A DNA stretch of 22,612 nt from a virus: the IMG/VR virus record IMGVR_UViG_3300035698_007529, positions 1 through 22,612 of that record, one strand, 5' to 3'. Shown here in pieces: positions 3,127 to 20,141 of the stretch. Every line of letters begins with the position of its first letter. The first letter of the stretch is position 1. The notes under the pieces were generated by a model that had not been told where the DNA came from, searched no databases, and saw only the letters and a program-made list of their open reading frames with translations. Both the position numbers and the translations under genes were made by a program.

Positions 3127-4107
3127 ATGAAATTTGAAGATAGAAGAGGAAGAACTGTTACTGTAGTACGAATGGAAGGTAATATAGCAATATTAAATAA
3201 TGGTGAAAGAGTGGCAACTGAAAGACTTAGGGATCCTGGTTTCTATAAACCTCTAAATGAAGGAACTGTTGTATCTACACCACCTATAGCACAACGAACA
3301 ACGATACCCACCGCAATTCCGATACAAAAACAAACAAGAATAATAGAAAATATGAATAATAATGATCAACCAATTATAACTCCCGATGAAGTTAGACATA
3401 GAAATTTATCTACTAATAAATCATTCTCTATTGGAGAAGATGACGGTTCTTTATTACGAGGGACGCAGAGGGGAAGAACGAACCCATCTTCTGATATAAA
3501 AATGAGCAGTAGTGTTGTAGAGTCACATAATGATAATTTGAGATCAATCGGTAAAGAACCTATGGAAGAAGCAGTCCCTGTTCATCAACCATACACTCAA
3601 CAATACGATCAAACTCCAAGCAACCTAACTCAAGAAGAACAATTAATACAAAAGTATGGAGCAACTGTGCCTGATACAAAAAGATCAGATCCTAGATTAG
3701 AAGAATTAGCATATGGTAAAAAAGTAAATCCACCAACACGAGAAGAATTGGGAAATAAAAGAGATGAAAGAAGAATTTCTAATGGTCCGAATCACACAGA
3801 AGAAGATCATTATGGACAACCCCACATACCCCAACAAGTAGTGAATCCAGTTCACCAAATGTTGGCTAAAGCAAAGAAAGTTCACCCTTTAGTTGTTAAT
3901 TTAAAAATTAATGAGAAAATACCGAATAAAGAATTCATTAAGATGATGGAAGAGAATTTCGAAGATGAATCGATAGTTGATTACTACGCTAGGGATATTT
4001 ATAAGAAATTAATGGAAGATCCTTCAGTTATCGAAAATCAAGTTAAAGATGCTATTAAAAAATATCTTAGAAGTAGAACTACTAAAGCTAAGGCTAAAAA
4101 GAAATAA
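3127..4107 (+). CDS. Unrecognised phage protein with basic N-terminal domain and helical C-terminus
   Basis: I do not recognise this 326-residue protein. The first ~40 residues (MKFEDRRGRTVTVVRMEGN onward) look like a small beta-barrel of alternating strands and glycines, SH3- or KOW-like in feel. Residues ~45-235 are polar, rich in Pro, Gln, Asn and charged residues, and probably disordered. The last ~85 residues (from about NPVHQMLAKAKKVHPLVV) are predicted helical and end in a lysine-rich tail (KAKAKKK), suggesting nucleic acid or partner binding. It begins at ATG 3127 after a terminator and an AT-rich leader, and is followed 6 bases later by a coiled-coil gene, so the two are probably cotranscribed. 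Position after gp32 suggests replication or morphogenesis, but nothing proves it. Confidence 0.8.
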   Translation: MKFEDRRGRTVTVVRMEGNIAILNNGERVATERLRDPGFYKPLNEGTVVSTPPIAQRTTIPTAIPIQKQTRIIENMNNNDQPIITPDEVRHRNLSTNKSFSIGEDDGSLLRGTQRGRTNPSSDIKMSSSVVESHNDNLRSIGKEPMEEAVPVHQPYTQQYDQTPSNLTQEEQLIQKYGATVPDTKRSDPRLEELAYGKKVNPPTREELGNKRDERRISNGPNHTEEDHYGQPHIPQQVVNPVHQMLAKAKKVHPLVVNLKINEKIPNKEFIKMMEENFEDESIVDYYARDIYKKLMEDPSVIENQVKDAIKKYLRSRTTKAKAKKK

Positions 4108-4506: not shown

Positions 4507-5010
4507 TTATATATAGTGACTCCATAACCATAACCGTTTCAATATAGTAGTAACAATTACATTCCCCTTAACTATAGGATTGTCCATTTTGAATCTATTT
4601 GAATCATACTTAAAGAAATCAACCGCAAATAACCCCACAGAACCACTCCTGTTCTGTCCTGCTGTACAATGTATTAATAACTTAGTATCTTTATTAAGAT
4701 TAGACATAACGTTAGTTAGAAAGGATATTACATCTTTTCCTTGTTCTTCAGTCATTATTTTTAAGTCAAATTTTTCACCAGTTTCCTTCGATTCCATTGT
4801 GAAATTTCTATCAGAATCATCGAAATGTAAAACCAGTACATTATCAGATTCAACATCTTGGAAATATGACTCGAATTTACCATAATGATCATGACTATCA
4901 TTTATAGAAATTATAAATGTGTCTTTTACTTCACCCACATTTTCCTTAGTGATATCATTAGATACCATTAAATCATTGAAATCATATTTATTTAATACTT
5001 TTATTAACAT
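4507..5010 (-). CDS. Protein tyrosine phosphatase-like enzyme
   Basis: The 167-residue product carries the cysteine-phosphatase P-loop HCTAGQNRSG (residues 114-123), fitting H-C-x5-R-S with catalytic C115 and phosphate-binding R121. Upstream, VLHFDDSDR (60-68) fits the FDD segment of small prokaryotic and phage predicted tyrosine phosphatases (COG5350-like), where an Asp acts as general acid; D64 or D65 is the likely residue. The helix before the P-loop (ISFLTNVMSNLNKDTKLLI) matches the family. It would remove phosphate from Tyr or Ser/Thr of proteins, or from another small substrate. It lies 27 bases downstream of the DUF3307 gene on the same strand, and meets the plus-strand gene tail to tail. 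A phage kinase gene is 2.8 kb away. The family call is good; the substrate is unknown. Confidence 0.82.
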   Translation of the reverse strand: MLIKVLNKYDFNDLMVSNDITKENVGEVKDTFIISINDSHDHYGKFESYFQDVESDNVLVLHFDDSDRNFTMESKETGEKFDLKIMTEEQGKDVISFLTNVMSNLNKDTKLLIHCTAGQNRSGSVGLFAVDFFKYDSNRFKMDNPIVKGNVIVTTILKRLWLWSHYI

Positions 5011-5037: not shown

Positions 5038-5472
5038 TTAATAAAAAATAATTTTATAAATTATAAATAGATGTACCATATGTAAGAATTGGTCAATACC
5101 TATTATAGAACTTGAGAAGTATTTCCATTTCCAATTATCCGTATCTACATATCTATCGTTACATACATTTTCTAATCTATGTGTCCACACATCTATTAAT
5201 AAATGTCCTATGAAAAGGTATACAAATACACCAAAATTCCAATCATTTATAGCCGTTAACTCATATGTGGCTAAAAATTCTACCATTGGTAATCCACTGA
5301 ATATCTGAAGAACTAAAACTAATAAAGGGAACGCGATATATAATGTCGCACTATAAATTAATATATGCACCATAAGAACCATTAGATTTGTAGATTTATT
5401 CTCAAACATCCACTTTGGTTGGAATATATAATCACCTAATAAGTGAAAGAATAAAATTAACATGAACTCCAT
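5038..5472 (-). CDS. DUF3307 family membrane protein
   Basis: The 144-residue product has the DUF3307 pattern: HLLGDYIFQPKW (10-21), HILIYS (36-41), GHLLIDVWTHRLEN (89-102) and IDQFLHM (126-132), separated by about four hydrophobic membrane segments (2-18, 31-58, 80-95, 122-144). The conserved His and Asp residues in the membrane segments suggest a metal- or proton-binding inner-membrane protein, but the family's biochemical role is not established. It starts at ATG (complement 5470-5472), two bases after a palindromic ACTATATAGT. It is first in a two-gene minus-strand unit with the phosphatase-like gene and is divergent from the first large virion gene. Confidence 0.85.
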   Translation of the reverse strand: MEFMLILFFHLLGDYIFQPKWMFENKSTNLMVLMVHILIYSATLYIAFPLLVLVLQIFSGLPMVEFLATYELTAINDWNFGVFVYLFIGHLLIDVWTHRLENVCNDRYVDTDNWKWKYFSSSIIGIDQFLHMVHLFIIYKIIFY

Positions 5473-7505: not shown

Positions 7506-7745
7506 TTATTGTTTATCTAACATTTCAAAAAAGGCATCCATAAGATACATCATCTGTTCTCCATTATCACCATCACCACCTACTTTAATACACATTGAAT
7601 CGTTGTAATCATTTAAATCATGATCAGACATAAACCGAACCAACCTTTCACTCATTGGGTGATGGTCAATCCCATCCTCCCATCGATTCAAATCGGTCAA
7701 TTCTAATTCCTTTGCTTTTTTATAATCTTCTGAATTTCTCGGCAT
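7506..7745 (-). CDS. Small acidic protein, unknown
   Basis: The 79-residue product is polar and acidic, with a basic N-terminus (MPRNSEDYKKAKELEL), one Cys, a GGDGDNGEQ loop and a helical C-terminus (MMYLMDAFFEMLDKQ). No family recognised. It is the last of three closely packed minus-strand genes, 7 bases after the 125-residue gene, and faces the end of the 641-residue virion gene 52 bases away. The compact operon and normal codon use support it as real. It lies in the accessory island inserted in the virion block. Confidence 0.7.
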   Translation of the reverse strand: MPRNSEDYKKAKELELTDLNRWEDGIDHHPMSERLVRFMSDHDLNDYNDSMCIKVGGDGDNGEQMMYLMDAFFEMLDKQ

Positions 7746-7752
7746 AGTTTAA

Positions 7753-8130
7753 TTATATTTTTGAAACTTCTTCAATTGTTATTTTGATTCTTTTACCCAC
7801 GAACTTATTAAGTTGTGTGTGTTTTAATTCTTCATCCCAAGATTGAACTCTTACGAACATTCCATTATCATCGTGATATTCTTCACCACCAGTAGTAAAT
7901 ATTTTAGCCATTCCACCATCCTCGCTATCAATTTCATCGGGGTTCATATCAGAATAGATTACATATTTATTTGATTTTCCTTCCTCTATCACACCAATCA
8001 ATTCATTCAATGCATCAATTGTTGCCTCATAAGTAAGACCATCAATTTGCTTAGGGCTTAAATGTTTATCGGTTGGAATACATCGTTTCAGATGTTTCTT
8101 ATATATTTTCTTCGCGTTTAATTCAGACAT
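7753..8130 (-). CDS. Small acidic protein, unknown
   Basis: The 125-residue product has a basic helical N-terminal part (MSELNAKKIYKKHLKRCIP, then a helix around EATIDALNELIGVIEEGK) and a beta-rich second half with GGEEYHDDNGMFVRVQSWDEE. The final segment (FVGKRIKITIEEVSKI) reads as two strands. No catalytic motif or family recognised. It is the middle gene of the minus-strand trio, starting 2 bases after the stop of the 95-residue gene, so translation is probably coupled. The role is unknown. Confidence 0.75.
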   Translation of the reverse strand: MSELNAKKIYKKHLKRCIPTDKHLSPKQIDGLTYEATIDALNELIGVIEEGKSNKYVIYSDMNPDEIDSEDGGMAKIFTTGGEEYHDDNGMFVRVQSWDEELKHTQLNKFVGKRIKITIEEVSKI

Positions 8131-8132
8131 AG

Positions 8133-8420
8133 TTAATTATTTATATTATTATATTCTATTTTCACATCAATATCACCAAAGAGCATAATACTCAACGAAT
8201 CATAGTCAGCCTTTGACATATTATTAATATCCATTGCTGATATAAGTGTATTGGAGTAATCACATCCAATCATTTCGTCTTTCGCATTTTCAATCGACCA
8301 CTCTGACCACAGCTTATCAACTACTTTCCAATTTCTTCCCCTAGGTGAGTATTTCTTTCTAGGGATAGGTGTTAATTTTCTTCCTGATTTACTAATTGGA
8401 TTATCTGCGTTGATTACCAT
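8133..8420 (-). CDS. Small basic protein, unknown
   Basis: The 95-residue product has a basic, proline-containing N-terminal half (MVINADNPISKSGRKLTPIP, then RKKYSPRGRNWK) and an acidic C-terminal half ending KIEYNNINN. It is promoter-proximal in the three-gene minus-strand unit: an exact T4 late-promoter octamer TATAAATA lies 3 bases before its ATG. No family recognised. The basic half could bind nucleic acid, which is inference only. Confidence 0.72.
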   Translation of the reverse strand: MVINADNPISKSGRKLTPIPRKKYSPRGRNWKVVDKLWSEWSIENAKDEMIGCDYSNTLISAMDINNMSKADYDSLSIMLFGDIDVKIEYNNINN

Positions 8421-8484: not shown

Positions 8485-8497
8485 TTTAATATATAGT
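8485..8497 (+). promoter_or_regulatory. Candidate late-type promoter TTTAATATATAGT
   Basis: The 13 bases are identical to 5513-5525 and the 2-base spacing to ATG is also identical, here before the endonuclease gene. The endonuclease therefore seems to carry its own expression signal rather than relying on read-through. Confidence 0.45.
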
Positions 8498-8499
8498 AA

Positions 8500-9750
8500 A
8501 TGAGAAGATTAACACATGAAGAATATATAGAAAAATGTAAAGAAGTTCATAATAATAAATATGATTATTCATTAGTCGAATATAAAAGGAGTCGTGATAA
8601 GATACAAATAATATGTAAAGAACATGGTATTTTTGAACAAGGAGCTAAACCACATAAAGAAGGACATGGTTGTTCTAAATGTAATGGTAGATATAAAATG
8701 ACAACTGAGGAATTCATAAAAGAGTCTAAAAAAATACACGGTGATAAATATGATTATAGTTTAGTTGATTATGTAAATATTAGAACACCAGTTAAATTAA
8801 TAGATAAAAAGTATGGTGAGATATTTACACAAAACCCTAAACACCATTTAAATGGACATATCACAAATAAACCAACTACTGAATTATTTATTAAAAAATC
8901 GAAAGAAGTACATGGTGATAAATATGATTATAGTTTAGTTGAATATATAAATAGGAAAACTCCTATTAAATTAATAGATAAAGAGTATGGGTTTGTATTT
9001 AAACAAACTCCCCAACACCATTTAAATGGGTATGGTAATTCAGGTAAAGTAACGAAAGACTATTTTATTAAAAAATGTGATAAAATACATGGAAATAAAT
9101 ATGATTATAGTTTAATTGAAGAAATAACATCAAATAAAGGTGTGGTGGAAATAATTTGCAAAGAACATGGAATATTTAACCAATCTGTTTCTAATCACAT
9201 GAACCTAAAACAAAATTGCCCCCAATGCTCACATAATTTTCCTTACACAACTAAATCATATATAAAAAAATGTAATAAAATACATGGTGATAAATATGAT
9301 TATAGTTTAGTAGATTATAAGAGAATTGATGAAAAAATAAAAATAATATGTAAAGAACATGGTGTGTTTGAGCAGTCTGCATCAAAACATAGTAATTCTG
9401 AACAAGGATGTCCTCAATGTAAAACCATATCAAGAGGAGAAAATAAAATATCTAAAATATTAACTAAAAATAATATTGAATACATTAAAGAACACTCATT
9501 TGATGATTGTAAATATGTGAATAAATTACCATTTGACTTTTATATACCATCCATAAATTTATTGATCGAATATGATGGAATTCAGCACTTTAAACCTGTT
9601 GATTTCTTTGGTGGTGATGAATATTTTAAAATAAGACAAAAAATAGATAAAATAAAGGATAAGTACTGTGAGAAAAACAATATATACTTAGTAAGAATAC
9701 CTTACACCGAATATAAGAATATAAATAAGGTATTACAAAAAATAATTTAA
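8500..9750 (+). CDS. Free-standing homing-type endonuclease with five DUF723-like repeats and Vsr-like nuclease domain
   Basis: The 416-residue product has five ~55-60-residue repeats (about 5-61, 67-123, 125-180, 184-243 and 248-307), each with an (H/N)(G/N)(D/N)KYDYSL core, as in DUF723 arrays. Repeats 1, 4 and 5 keep a C-x2-H ... C-x2-C set that looks zinc-binding (C39/H42/C58/C61, C220/H223/C240/C243, C284/H287/C304/C307). Repeats 2 and 3 have lost it. The C-terminal domain (311-416) is PD-(D/E)xK/Vsr-like: SRGENKIS (E314), LPFDFYIP (D346) and LIEYDGIQHF (E357, D359, Q362, H363), as in EDxHD-type phage homing enzymes. It would cut DNA, with the repeats giving site recognition. It has its own promoter-like element, and its stop codon directly abuts the next virion reading frame, which lacks a start. 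It is probably the mobile part of the island. Confidence 0.85.
   Translation: MRRLTHEEYIEKCKEVHNNKYDYSLVEYKRSRDKIQIICKEHGIFEQGAKPHKEGHGCSKCNGRYKMTTEEFIKESKKIHGDKYDYSLVDYVNIRTPVKLIDKKYGEIFTQNPKHHLNGHITNKPTTELFIKKSKEVHGDKYDYSLVEYINRKTPIKLIDKEYGFVFKQTPQHHLNGYGNSGKVTKDYFIKKCDKIHGNKYDYSLIEEITSNKGVVEIICKEHGIFNQSVSNHMNLKQNCPQCSHNFPYTTKSYIKKCNKIHGDKYDYSLVDYKRIDEKIKIICKEHGVFEQSASKHSNSEQGCPQCKTISRGENKISKILTKNNIEYIKEHSFDDCKYVNKLPFDFYIPSINLLIEYDGIQHFKPVDFFGGDEYFKIRQKIDKIKDKYCEKNNIYLVRIPYTEYKNINKVLQKII
8512..9420 (+). repeat. Five tandem repeats inside the endonuclease gene
   Basis: The most conserved DNA core of each unit begins at about 8547, 8737, 8911, 9088 and 9283; the last four share ATAAATATGATTATAGTTTA. 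Units are ~170-195 bases apart. They are in frame and encode the DUF723-like modules, so this is a domain array rather than a CRISPR or a replication iteron set. Confidence 0.8.
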
Positions 9751-10395
9751 ATAGCTATCAGAATCAATTCACAGGGGTCTCAATTCTCCTTCAATCTCCC
9801 AAGTGACCTTATACCGAAGTCTATCGCAGATAGGTATATACCAGTTTTAGAAAAGAATTGGATTCAGTATGAAAATGTATTGGATTATTTAAACAGCACT
9901 ATCAAAGAGATTGCATTCCCTGGTATGGCTCTTACACTACCTTCACAAACATTGATGAGGGGTAAAAAGAGAAACTATCGTCCAGTAACAAACATTAATG
10001 ATATCACAACAACGAGAGAATTATCAATTGTGTTTCGTAGAGTGGATAGTGATTTGAATTACATGATTCTTAGAGATATATTTGATACTAAATATCTTGA
10101 TGTATTAAACGTATTTGCAGAACCGTTCCAATTAATATCATTAGATATTCACCGAGATGCTATCTATCAAGTAAATTTCACCGAGATAATATTGAGTAAT
10201 ATATCTGAGATAATATTCTCATATAGCCAACAATCATTTCAAGAACAAACCTTCACATTGAATTTTAATTTTAATTTCTATGAAATAGAATTCTTATTAA
10301 ACAATGAAAAGGTATTAGAACTTGAGCCAGATGAATTACCATCTATACAGAATAAAAATTGGAAAATAGGTGATATTAATAAGTTGAATTTATAA
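9751..10395 (+). CDS. Virion structural protein (tail tube-like or baseplate), start codon displaced by the endonuclease gene
   Basis: The open frame begins directly after the endonuclease TAA and encodes up to 215 codons. The first in-frame accepted start is TTG at 9880 (171 residues), but the 43 codons before it read as good protein: IAIRINSQGSQFSFNLPSDL, followed by aromatic and charged residues like the rest. There is no ATG or GTG between 9751 and 9880. The first codon is ATA, a rare initiator; with ATG instead it would give a natural N-terminus (MAIRINSQG). The body (STIKEIAFPGMALTLP, RGKKRNYRPVTN, FRRVDSDLNYMILRDIF) is beta-rich and suggests a tail tube-like or baseplate protein, though I cannot name it. 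Its last 20 bases overlap a minus-strand ORF. Most likely the insertion removed the normal start, and expression uses ATA, TTG or re-initiation after the endonuclease stop. Confidence 0.72.
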   Translation: MAIRINSQGSQFSFNLPSDLIPKSIADRYIPVLEKNWIQYENVLDYLNSTIKEIAFPGMALTLPSQTLMRGKKRNYRPVTNINDITTTRELSIVFRRVDSDLNYMILRDIFDTKYLDVLNVFAEPFQLISLDIHRDAIYQVNFTEIILSNISEIIFSYSQQSFQEQTFTLNFNFNFYEIEFLLNNEKVLELEPDELPSIQNKNWKIGDINKLNL

Positions 10396-19013: not shown

Positions 19014-20141
19014 ATGGAGATAATAACAAAAATTAAAGAAACTAAAACTATCGAATCAACAGAAACAACAATAGAACAAGAGGTAATTAGAGTACCTGAT
19101 TTGAGCTATTTTGAAGAAGAAACTATCCCTGATTACGGAGATAAAGACATATTCAAAATCGCAATGGAAACTGTTAAAGTTCCCAAACCAGGATACGTAC
19201 ATGACGCTGTTTATGTAGGTGAGGATTTCACTCACTTTTTATTAGATGCTGATTTTAAAGATTTAGTAAGAGTGCTAAAAACTACGGAGGAATCTAATTT
19301 CTTCGTGCAAGCTGAATTGGGCGACATAATGCGTGTCGTTGTTATGAAAATAACAGATGAAAAGCATTTCAGTATTGATGGCAGTGTTTCTCGCATCTAC
19401 CGAGAAGAAGCATTTGAAATGTTGAAGAACATGAAAGATGATTTTTTCATTAACGTGAAAGTAGATAAATTAACTGGTGCTGGATATAATTGCACTATCA
19501 AAGTCGGAGGGTGTGAGATAAAATCTTTCTTACCTCAGATATTAGCTGGTGTGAATAAAATCCATGATGATGAAAAAGAGGCATTAGTAGGTAAAGAATT
19601 GGAAATGTGTGTTGAATCGTATGTAGAAGATAAAGGAACTTGGATTGTTTCTCGTAGAAAATATCTAAAGCAATTGATTCCAGCATATATGGACAATTTA
19701 GATACTGTTACTGATTACACTGGATCAGTAACAGGAACAGCAAAATTTGGAGTCTTTGTAGAGTTCAATGATTGTTTAACTGGAATGATTCATAGGAGTA
19801 ATCTAACTGATGAACTTAAAGAAAGTTTTGATGATATTAAACAAGGTGATGATATTACATTTAATGTGAAGGAAATCATCAAAGGTAATAGAATAATTCT
19901 AACCCAAGTGCATACTACCTCTTTATGGGATAGTATATCTATCGGACAGAATTTAACTGGGACGATTAAAGACCATAAACCGTTTGGTTCATTAATTATC
20001 CTAGACCATGAAACTTTAGGGCTTATTCATAGCTCTGAGCAAACACCAGAGGTTAAGGATCTGAAAAGTGGTGACGAATTAGGCGTTAAAGTATTAGCGA
20101 TTAATAGATCAGAACGTAAAATATATTTAAGAAACACTTAA
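19014..20141 (+). CDS. S1-domain RNA-binding protein, ribosomal protein S1-like
   Basis: The 375-residue product has an acidic ~55-residue N-terminal extension (MEIITKIKETKTIESTETTI) and four S1/OB-like units. Unit 1 (~60-125: VYVGEDFTHFLLDADFKDLV) and unit 2 (~145-215: KVGGCEIKSFLP, then GTWIVSRRKYLKQ) match domains 1 and 2 of bacterial S1. Unit 3 (~233-298: YTGSVTGTAKFGVFVEF, GMIHRSNLT, RIILTQ) and unit 4 (~308-375: GTIKDHKPFGSLIIL, GLIHSSEQT, SERKIYLRN) are canonical S1 folds. Bacterial S1 usually has four to six. The first two units in S1 contact the ribosome and the later ones bind mRNA, so the protein could act at the ribosome, or protect RNA. It is followed by a strong terminator and preceded by an A/T-rich leader. 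Assignment as S1-like is confident; action on the host ribosome is inference. Confidence 0.88.
   Translation: MEIITKIKETKTIESTETTIEQEVIRVPDLSYFEEETIPDYGDKDIFKIAMETVKVPKPGYVHDAVYVGEDFTHFLLDADFKDLVRVLKTTEESNFFVQAELGDIMRVVVMKITDEKHFSIDGSVSRIYREEAFEMLKNMKDDFFINVKVDKLTGAGYNCTIKVGGCEIKSFLPQILAGVNKIHDDEKEALVGKELEMCVESYVEDKGTWIVSRRKYLKQLIPAYMDNLDTVTDYTGSVTGTAKFGVFVEFNDCLTGMIHRSNLTDELKESFDDIKQGDDITFNVKEIIKGNRIILTQVHTTSLWDSISIGQNLTGTIKDHKPFGSLIILDHETLGLIHSSEQTPEVKDLKSGDELGVKVLAINRSERKIYLRNT

Follow-up and report, generated by a model that had tools for sequence, protein, structure and literature searches.

Free-standing homing endonucleases of phages, such as the seg and mob enzymes of T4-like phages and the T5orf172/DUF723 enzymes of ICP1-like phages, lie between genes, near essential structural genes, and spread by copying their flanks; the ICP1-like enzymes also contain repeated DUF723-type zinc fingers, a typical trait of homing endonucleases in phages (PMC10448857, PMC2988022). 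In the available parts of these two sources, the known cases sit beside genes or split them, and replacement of a start codon by ATC or ATT together with a synonymous rewrite of the gene start is not described for such enzymes (PMC10448857, PMC2988022). Here, we analyze a comparable locus in IMG/VR virus record IMGVR_UViG_3300035698_007529 (positions 1 to 22,612; this whole stretch of 22,612 nucleotides (nt) is referred to as the window), in which a homing-endonuclease-like gene directly precedes a virion gene of predicted tail-tube fold that has no ATG start. We propose, with a probability of about two in three, that this is a mobile element which targets the first codons of the tail-tube gene and brings along a rescue copy of the destroyed part.

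With I-Bth0305I and other EDxHD (Vsr-like) homing endonucleases, the element shares a Vsr-like C-terminal fold, a long multi-unit DNA-binding part and its residence in a phage. Unlike I-Bth0305I, it is free-standing at a gene start, has no detectable intron and adjoins recoded target codons. The out-of-frame HNH insertions of the ShiLan type in phage methylases likewise involve neither intron nor intein and leave the target usable (PMC11855218), but they lie inside a gene in an open frame, whereas the present element duplicates and rewrites the gene start. The same near-cognate starts are known from infC, the gene for IF3 (ATT in E. coli, ATC in Streptomyces), and sigR uses GTC (PMC5472188); those genes are low-level regulatory and IF3-controlled, whereas the present codon belongs to a tail-tube gene and travels with a mobile element. 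Genes split by a homing endonuclease, such as Aeh1 nrdA or the T4 topoisomerase, do not provide a parallel, since the tube frame is found complete on the right-hand side of the element. Engineered home-and-rescue gene drives link a cutter to a recoded, cut-proof copy of its target. Those drives are CRISPR-based, whereas the element described here is natural and its nuclease target is a predicted one.

The endonuclease and the gene behind it

The endonuclease open reading frame (ORF; ATG start) ends in a TAA at 9748-9750 that adjoins another open frame. This frame opens at 9751 with IAIRINSQGSQFSFNLPSDL... and stops at 10393-10395; its earliest ATG, GTG or TTG is the TTG at 9880, codon 42 counting from 9757. 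A preliminary description, made from the letters of this DNA, had pointed out the junction, which the ORF check confirmed, and had expected the ATG at the ATA at 9751. The homologues place it two codons further in. From 9757 onward, the frame matches the extreme N-terminus of 15 homologues without gaps (M-R-L-S-S-Q-x-S-Q-F in the homologues, I-R-I-N-S-Q-G-S-Q-F in the window; R2, Q6, S8, F10, F12, L14 and P15 are invariant), and because their initiator Met aligns with ATC 9757, we place the start there (Table 1). The earlier view that translation of this gene requires a non-standard start thus holds, while alignment and codon survey favor ATC 9757 over the two candidates named at the time, ATA 9751 and TTG 9880. 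Homologues that begin at the TTG and a second intact copy of the gene were both looked for and neither was found; the 43 codons preceding TTG 9880 rank with the most strongly conserved ones.

The tube gene matches the tail-tube family phrog_45 weakly (E value 5e-4). Its AlphaFold model is of moderate quality (predicted local distance difference test, pLDDT, 64) and matches the T4 portal-neck-tail complex, the P1 tube, phage baseplate/tube proteins and Hcp. In the structural search (best E value 2.7e-3, probability 1.00), nearly all upper matches were tube, baseplate-tube or Hcp chains, and by this model the gene to the right of the endonuclease encodes a protein of the contractile-tail tube/Hcp fold.

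For the endonuclease, profile searches returned phrog_559 (E value 7e-91), phrog_9084 "homing endonuclease" (1e-31) and DUF723 above cut-off, while a sequence search against the PDB gave nothing useful. The AlphaFold model (pLDDT 86) has an N-terminal part of five repeated units, followed by a C-terminal domain that aligns with Vsr (1cw0, Z 11.1, VIA-align) and with the I-Bth0305I catalytic domain (3r3p, Z 10.8, 21% identity, root-mean-square deviation 2.6, 89 aligned residues). As modeled, the enzyme has a Vsr/I-Bth0305I-like catalytic fold. E314, D346, H363 and D383, which are candidates for the catalytic E, D, H and D of the EDxHD enzymes, are invariant in 18 relatives.

Non-ATG starts accompany the element

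Profile and DNA-pattern scans of IMG/VR, plus a search of phage records, yielded 55 distinct tube genes; except for named phage records, all loci (L numbers) are metagenomic contigs, and several of the non-ATG contigs are short. The start codons were ATG in 41, ATC in eight, ATT in five and TTG in one. Three further loci from a broader DNA-pattern scan all had ATG, and no relative turned up in a scan of genome contigs. Where the element or a scar was present, 14 of 15 loci were non-ATG, compared to none of the 40 loci without a trace of the element (Fisher p = 3.4e-12). An endonuclease lies directly upstream of the non-ATG gene in the window, L023, L034, L042, L049 and L062, a broken or partial one in L061 and L024, and a scar of 60-176 nt separates the upstream gene from the non-ATG tube gene in L035, L039, L041, L043, L050 and L067. 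All 40 trace-free loci, with a gap of -4 to 44 nt to the upstream gene, start with ATG. The preliminary description had suggested that insertion removed the start, and the comparison with relatives lacking the endonuclease does tie the missing ATG to it. Nothing was simply cut off, however: the element carries a complete recoded start. A missing part of the gene at another place, as had also been considered, is not supported.

The remaining scar locus, L077 (identical to L016; start at 3962), starts with ATG while retaining the hairpin, the A-rich box and CGT as codon 2; its ATG is probably a reversion from ATC after endonuclease loss. The structural gene upstream of the tube gene starts with ATG in the loci compared. 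Because related endonucleases at other sites precede a gene with an ordinary start, or no clear downstream gene, start replacement appears to belong to the tube site and was rejected as a general property of this endonuclease family.

The element carries a recoded gene start

Divergence from empty-site homologues exceeds the background only between nt -6 and +24 and is about zero past codon 9. In this start region of about 30 base pairs (bp), AGA has become CGT and AGT has become TCC, which leaves the protein almost the same but turns purine-rich into pyrimidine-rich DNA. Arg2 is encoded by CGN in 11 of 14 non-ATG genes versus 1 of 38 others (14-16% in the rest of the gene in both groups), and TCC makes up 18 of 46 versus 13 of 126 Ser codons at positions 4, 5, 7 and 8 (3-4% elsewhere in both groups). 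About 30 bp is the target length contacted by many phage homing endonucleases (PMC3943268). The tube start region is the presumed cleavage target, and the recoding would confer immunity to cleavage.

On the far side of the endonuclease or scar, a vestige of the old ATG start is found in L039 (ATGAGATTAAGTATCAAAAG), L042 (ATGAGGTTAAAGTATCAAAAG) and L034 (ATGAGATTAATTG). In relatives, a block like the left end of the element (Table 1) comes after this vestige, and this block likely acts as the endonuclease promoter. A TTTAATATATA motif before gene starts is common to several intergenic regions (window 8485-8499, L020, L021, L043, L058 and L067) and may be a phage promoter; at scars, the copy that belonged to the endonuclease is now found directly before the tube leader.

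The non-ATG state is patchily distributed. On a tree of the 55 tube proteins it takes 12 changes, at least eight of them forced by well-supported branches, and near sisters are found in opposite states (L034/L030, L039/L018, L035/L033, L050/L044 and L062/L071). This scatter argues that the element is mobile and carries the new start along. The endonucleases at the tube site cluster among 78 relatives (2 changes versus a shuffled mean of 5.9, quick tree), and the combination of a patchy tube tree with clustered endonucleases is, on these trees, the pattern of homing. In the window, the stretch from the structural gene to the endonuclease holds three small reverse-strand genes (7506-8420), to which L023 has a single related gene, and insertions thus seem to collect at this spot.

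Leader and initiation codon

Element and scar loci have a similar A-rich box at the same spacing, and 14 of 15 can form a Watson-Crick stem of 5 bp or more whose end lies 17-22 nt (most 20-22) upstream of the start. Dinucleotide shuffles predict 5.9 such loci, and 0 of 200 shuffles reached 14; in the ATG control loci, stems were found in 8 of 40 (7.6 expected). The arms are unrelated in sequence (AATACCTTA/TAAGGTATT, ACAACT/AGTTGT, ACTGA/TCAGT, TCCTT/AAGGA, CTACAG/CTGTAG and TTACAAT/ATTGTAA), and between the window and L023 the stem is preserved across several paired changes. Folding z-scores of whole leaders did not separate the groups; the positional stem test alone did. Because the start block persists in scars after endonuclease loss, along with hairpin and A-rich box, the three together appear to serve the tube gene.

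Every non-ATG locus has an in-frame stop 2-6 codons upstream, with no ATG, GTG, TTG or CTG between stop and start, and no position other than the Met-aligned codon is start-like throughout these loci. The strong conservation of codons 2-40, where changes between near relatives are mostly synonymous (nonsynonymous divergence, dN, about 0.06-0.11; synonymous divergence, dS, about 1 or more), rules out a start further downstream. Ile in tube genes is encoded by ATA in 44% and by ATC in 10% of cases, compared to 8 ATC, 5 ATT and 0 ATA at the start position; for an ordinary Ile codon, the chance of 0 ATA is 6e-4 and that of 8 ATC among 13 is 6e-6, assuming independence, which fails in part. Judged by this usage, the codon is not an ordinary Ile. 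ATT or ATC thus occupies a conserved initiator position that has no alternative start, and we infer that the tube protein initiates at AUC/AUU.

Table 1 Features of the tail-tube locus in the window.
Feature	Position	Strand	Basis
Left end of element and likely endonuclease promoter, CAAAAGG...TTTTTAATATATAGTAA	8462..8499	+	By-eye alignment of the left flanks of L023, L034, L039, L042, L049 and L062
Homing-endonuclease-like gene, 416 amino acids	8500..9750	+	About five HGDKYDYSLV/zinc-finger (DUF723-type) units and C-terminal Vsr/I-Bth0305I-like nuclease domain, residues 310-416
Hairpin AATACCTTA(21-nt loop)TAAGGTATT	9696..9734	+	22 nt from the end of the 3' arm to the start codon; overlap with the 3' end of the endonuclease gene
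22-nt leader with A-rich box ACAAAAAATAATTTAAATAGCT	9735..9756	+	Contains endonuclease stop TAA 9748-9750
Predicted tail-tube start codon ATC	9757..9759	+	Same alignment position as the initiator ATG in 41 homologues; element/scar loci have ATC/ATT (13) or TTG (1)
Recoded 5' end, start codon and codons 2-8	9757..9780	+	Excess divergence from empty-site homologues
Tail-tube-fold virion gene, 212 amino acids from ATC 9757	9757..10395	+	phrog_45, fold matches of the AlphaFold model, single copy in related records

Other genes and translation factors

A protein with an S1 RNA-binding domain is encoded at 19014-20141 (+) of the window (PF00575, E value 2e-14) and is 41-45% identical to proteins of most large relatives, including two complete genomes of 635-642 kb; such a phage S1-like factor may bear on start selection. 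IF3 homologues (PF00707, E value about 1e-26) occur in 3 of 17 records (G017, G019 and G021, the records of L045, L059 and L009). All three carriers have an ATG tube gene, and no IF3 homologue was found in a non-ATG record among the 17 searched. A phage tRNA that reads AUY as initiator was also considered; a tRNA search located tRNAs mainly in the large records with an ATG tube gene and in just one of the non-ATG records, the records being fragments. On the reverse strand, the window additionally encodes a dual-specificity/tyrosine phosphatase-like protein (4507-5010; HCTAGQNRSG signature; PF00782, E value 2.5e-5, below cut-off), which lies inside the late region but on the other strand, and a DUF3307 membrane protein (5038-5472; PF11750, E value 3e-10), here found in a phage.

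Mechanism and alternatives

In the proposed mechanism, the endonuclease would recognize about 30 bp at the tube start of a co-infecting phage (consensus AA-ATG-AGA-TTA-AGT-AGT-CAG), with an I-Bth0305I/Vsr-like nuclease working on repeated zinc-finger DNA-binding units, and repair would copy the element into the cut allele. Its right end would then provide a new gene start that keeps R-L-S-S-Q, with codons swapped for their most different synonyms (CGT, TCC), and because of this swap the resident copy would no longer be cut. As Met has no synonym, ATG would be exchanged for the near-cognate ATC or ATT, which the initiator tRNA would still read as formylmethionine, aided by a leader with the hairpin ending about 22 nt upstream and the A-rich box. 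Later loss of the endonuclease would leave a scar consisting of the leader and an ATC/ATT start. The sequence comparisons support this account through association, mobility, the recoded footprint, the lack of another start, purifying selection and the position of the hairpin. A further step, namely that the hairpin about 22 nt upstream makes AUC/AUU roughly equal to AUG for a major virion protein, so that a natural home-and-rescue element, as a selfish gene rewriting its target's start codon, would come with a new mode of initiation, is put forward only tentatively.

Several observations weigh against the home-and-rescue account. Known ATC/ATT starts are weak and IF3-repressed (PMC5472188), which is odd for a many-copy tube protein. 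Six endonuclease-less scars keep ATC or ATT although one base change restores ATG, and only L077 has an ATG. The recoding is uneven: codon 2 is still AGA in L062 (TTG), and AGA/AGG persists in the pair of the window and L023. The window for the hairpin test was set after examples had been seen, and L039 has no clear hairpin. Finally, the copies of the element are related by descent and the codon counts are not independent; since common descent inflates these counts, the tree-based minimum of changes is the fairer measure of repetition.

The leader could instead be a structure-guided module for non-AUG initiation that was selected for translation and not for immunity; the hairpin at -22 would then abut the back of the 30S subunit and set AUY in the P site, and the recoding would serve mRNA accessibility. 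The near-constant distance of 19-22 nt between hairpin end and start, despite unrelated arms, in nearly all element loci fits this idea, as do the retention of the hairpin after endonuclease loss in scars L043, L067, L035 and L050, the conserved YY before and CGT after ATY, and the S1-like RNA-binding protein encoded by the window and relatives. It leaves unexplained, however, why the most distant Ser and Arg synonyms are used and why the change ends at codon 8-9, and L077 has the hairpin together with an ATG; we consider it rather unlikely.

Re-initiation, which the preliminary description had raised for the TAA-ATA junction, would couple a start at ATA 9751 or ATC 9757 to the endonuclease stop; it agrees with the few nt between stop and start in the window, L023, L024, L034 and L049 and the overlap in L062. 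Scars without an upstream endonuclease ORF nevertheless keep ATC or ATT, and L034, L042 and L067 have no upstream ATA. Coupling is thus not a requirement and is improbable as the explanation, although it may add to expression in intact elements.

A tube protein made from an upstream start via splicing, bypass or stop readthrough, with the endonuclease residing in an intron or hop element that escaped recognition and the ATC as an internal Ile, is very improbable. Introns often house homing endonucleases, T4 gene 60 has a hop, and the old ATG-AGR-TTA start is left of the element in L034, L039 and L042. However, no Rfam intron family was found around the ORF up to an E value of 1, ATA never occupies the start position though it is a common Ile codon, and splicing would duplicate the R-L-S-S-Q codons because the right side already holds them. 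The scars L067, L043 and L035 have no ATG within 60-97 nt upstream, and in L067 (TAA TCA AAG TTT ATC CGT) the 60-nt gap after the upstream gene lacks ATG, GTG and TTG in any frame, which argues for excluding splicing, bypass and an upstream start altogether. A group I/II intron-borne endonuclease was rejected on the Rfam search and the scars of 60-97 nt, and a bypass of the T4 gene 60 type because L067 has no translated 5' part (no ATG, GTG or TTG between the upstream stop and ATC).

That the insertion killed this copy while an intact one persists elsewhere, as the missing ATG might indicate and as had been considered early on, is hardly credible, since the frame is intact here and conserved in 14 loci (dN/dS about 0.05 between relatives), the window holds no second copy, and 24 of 25 related records, a complete 642-kb genome among them, hold a single tube gene, which is indirect evidence for the window, whose genome is a fragment. 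In the 635-kb genome LR745206, a second tube match is weak and interrupted by stops.

For annotation, gene callers that assume ATG, GTG or TTG would shorten a conserved virion protein or overlook its start in 13 of the loci found. If the home-and-rescue account is true, the element would be a natural counterpart of engineered rescue drives. The empty, occupied and scar alleles with their repeated gains would then offer a clean system to learn how a selfish gene spares an essential target. They would also make it possible to test efficient AUC/AUU initiation in phages equipped with S1-like factors and in some cases with IF3-like ones.
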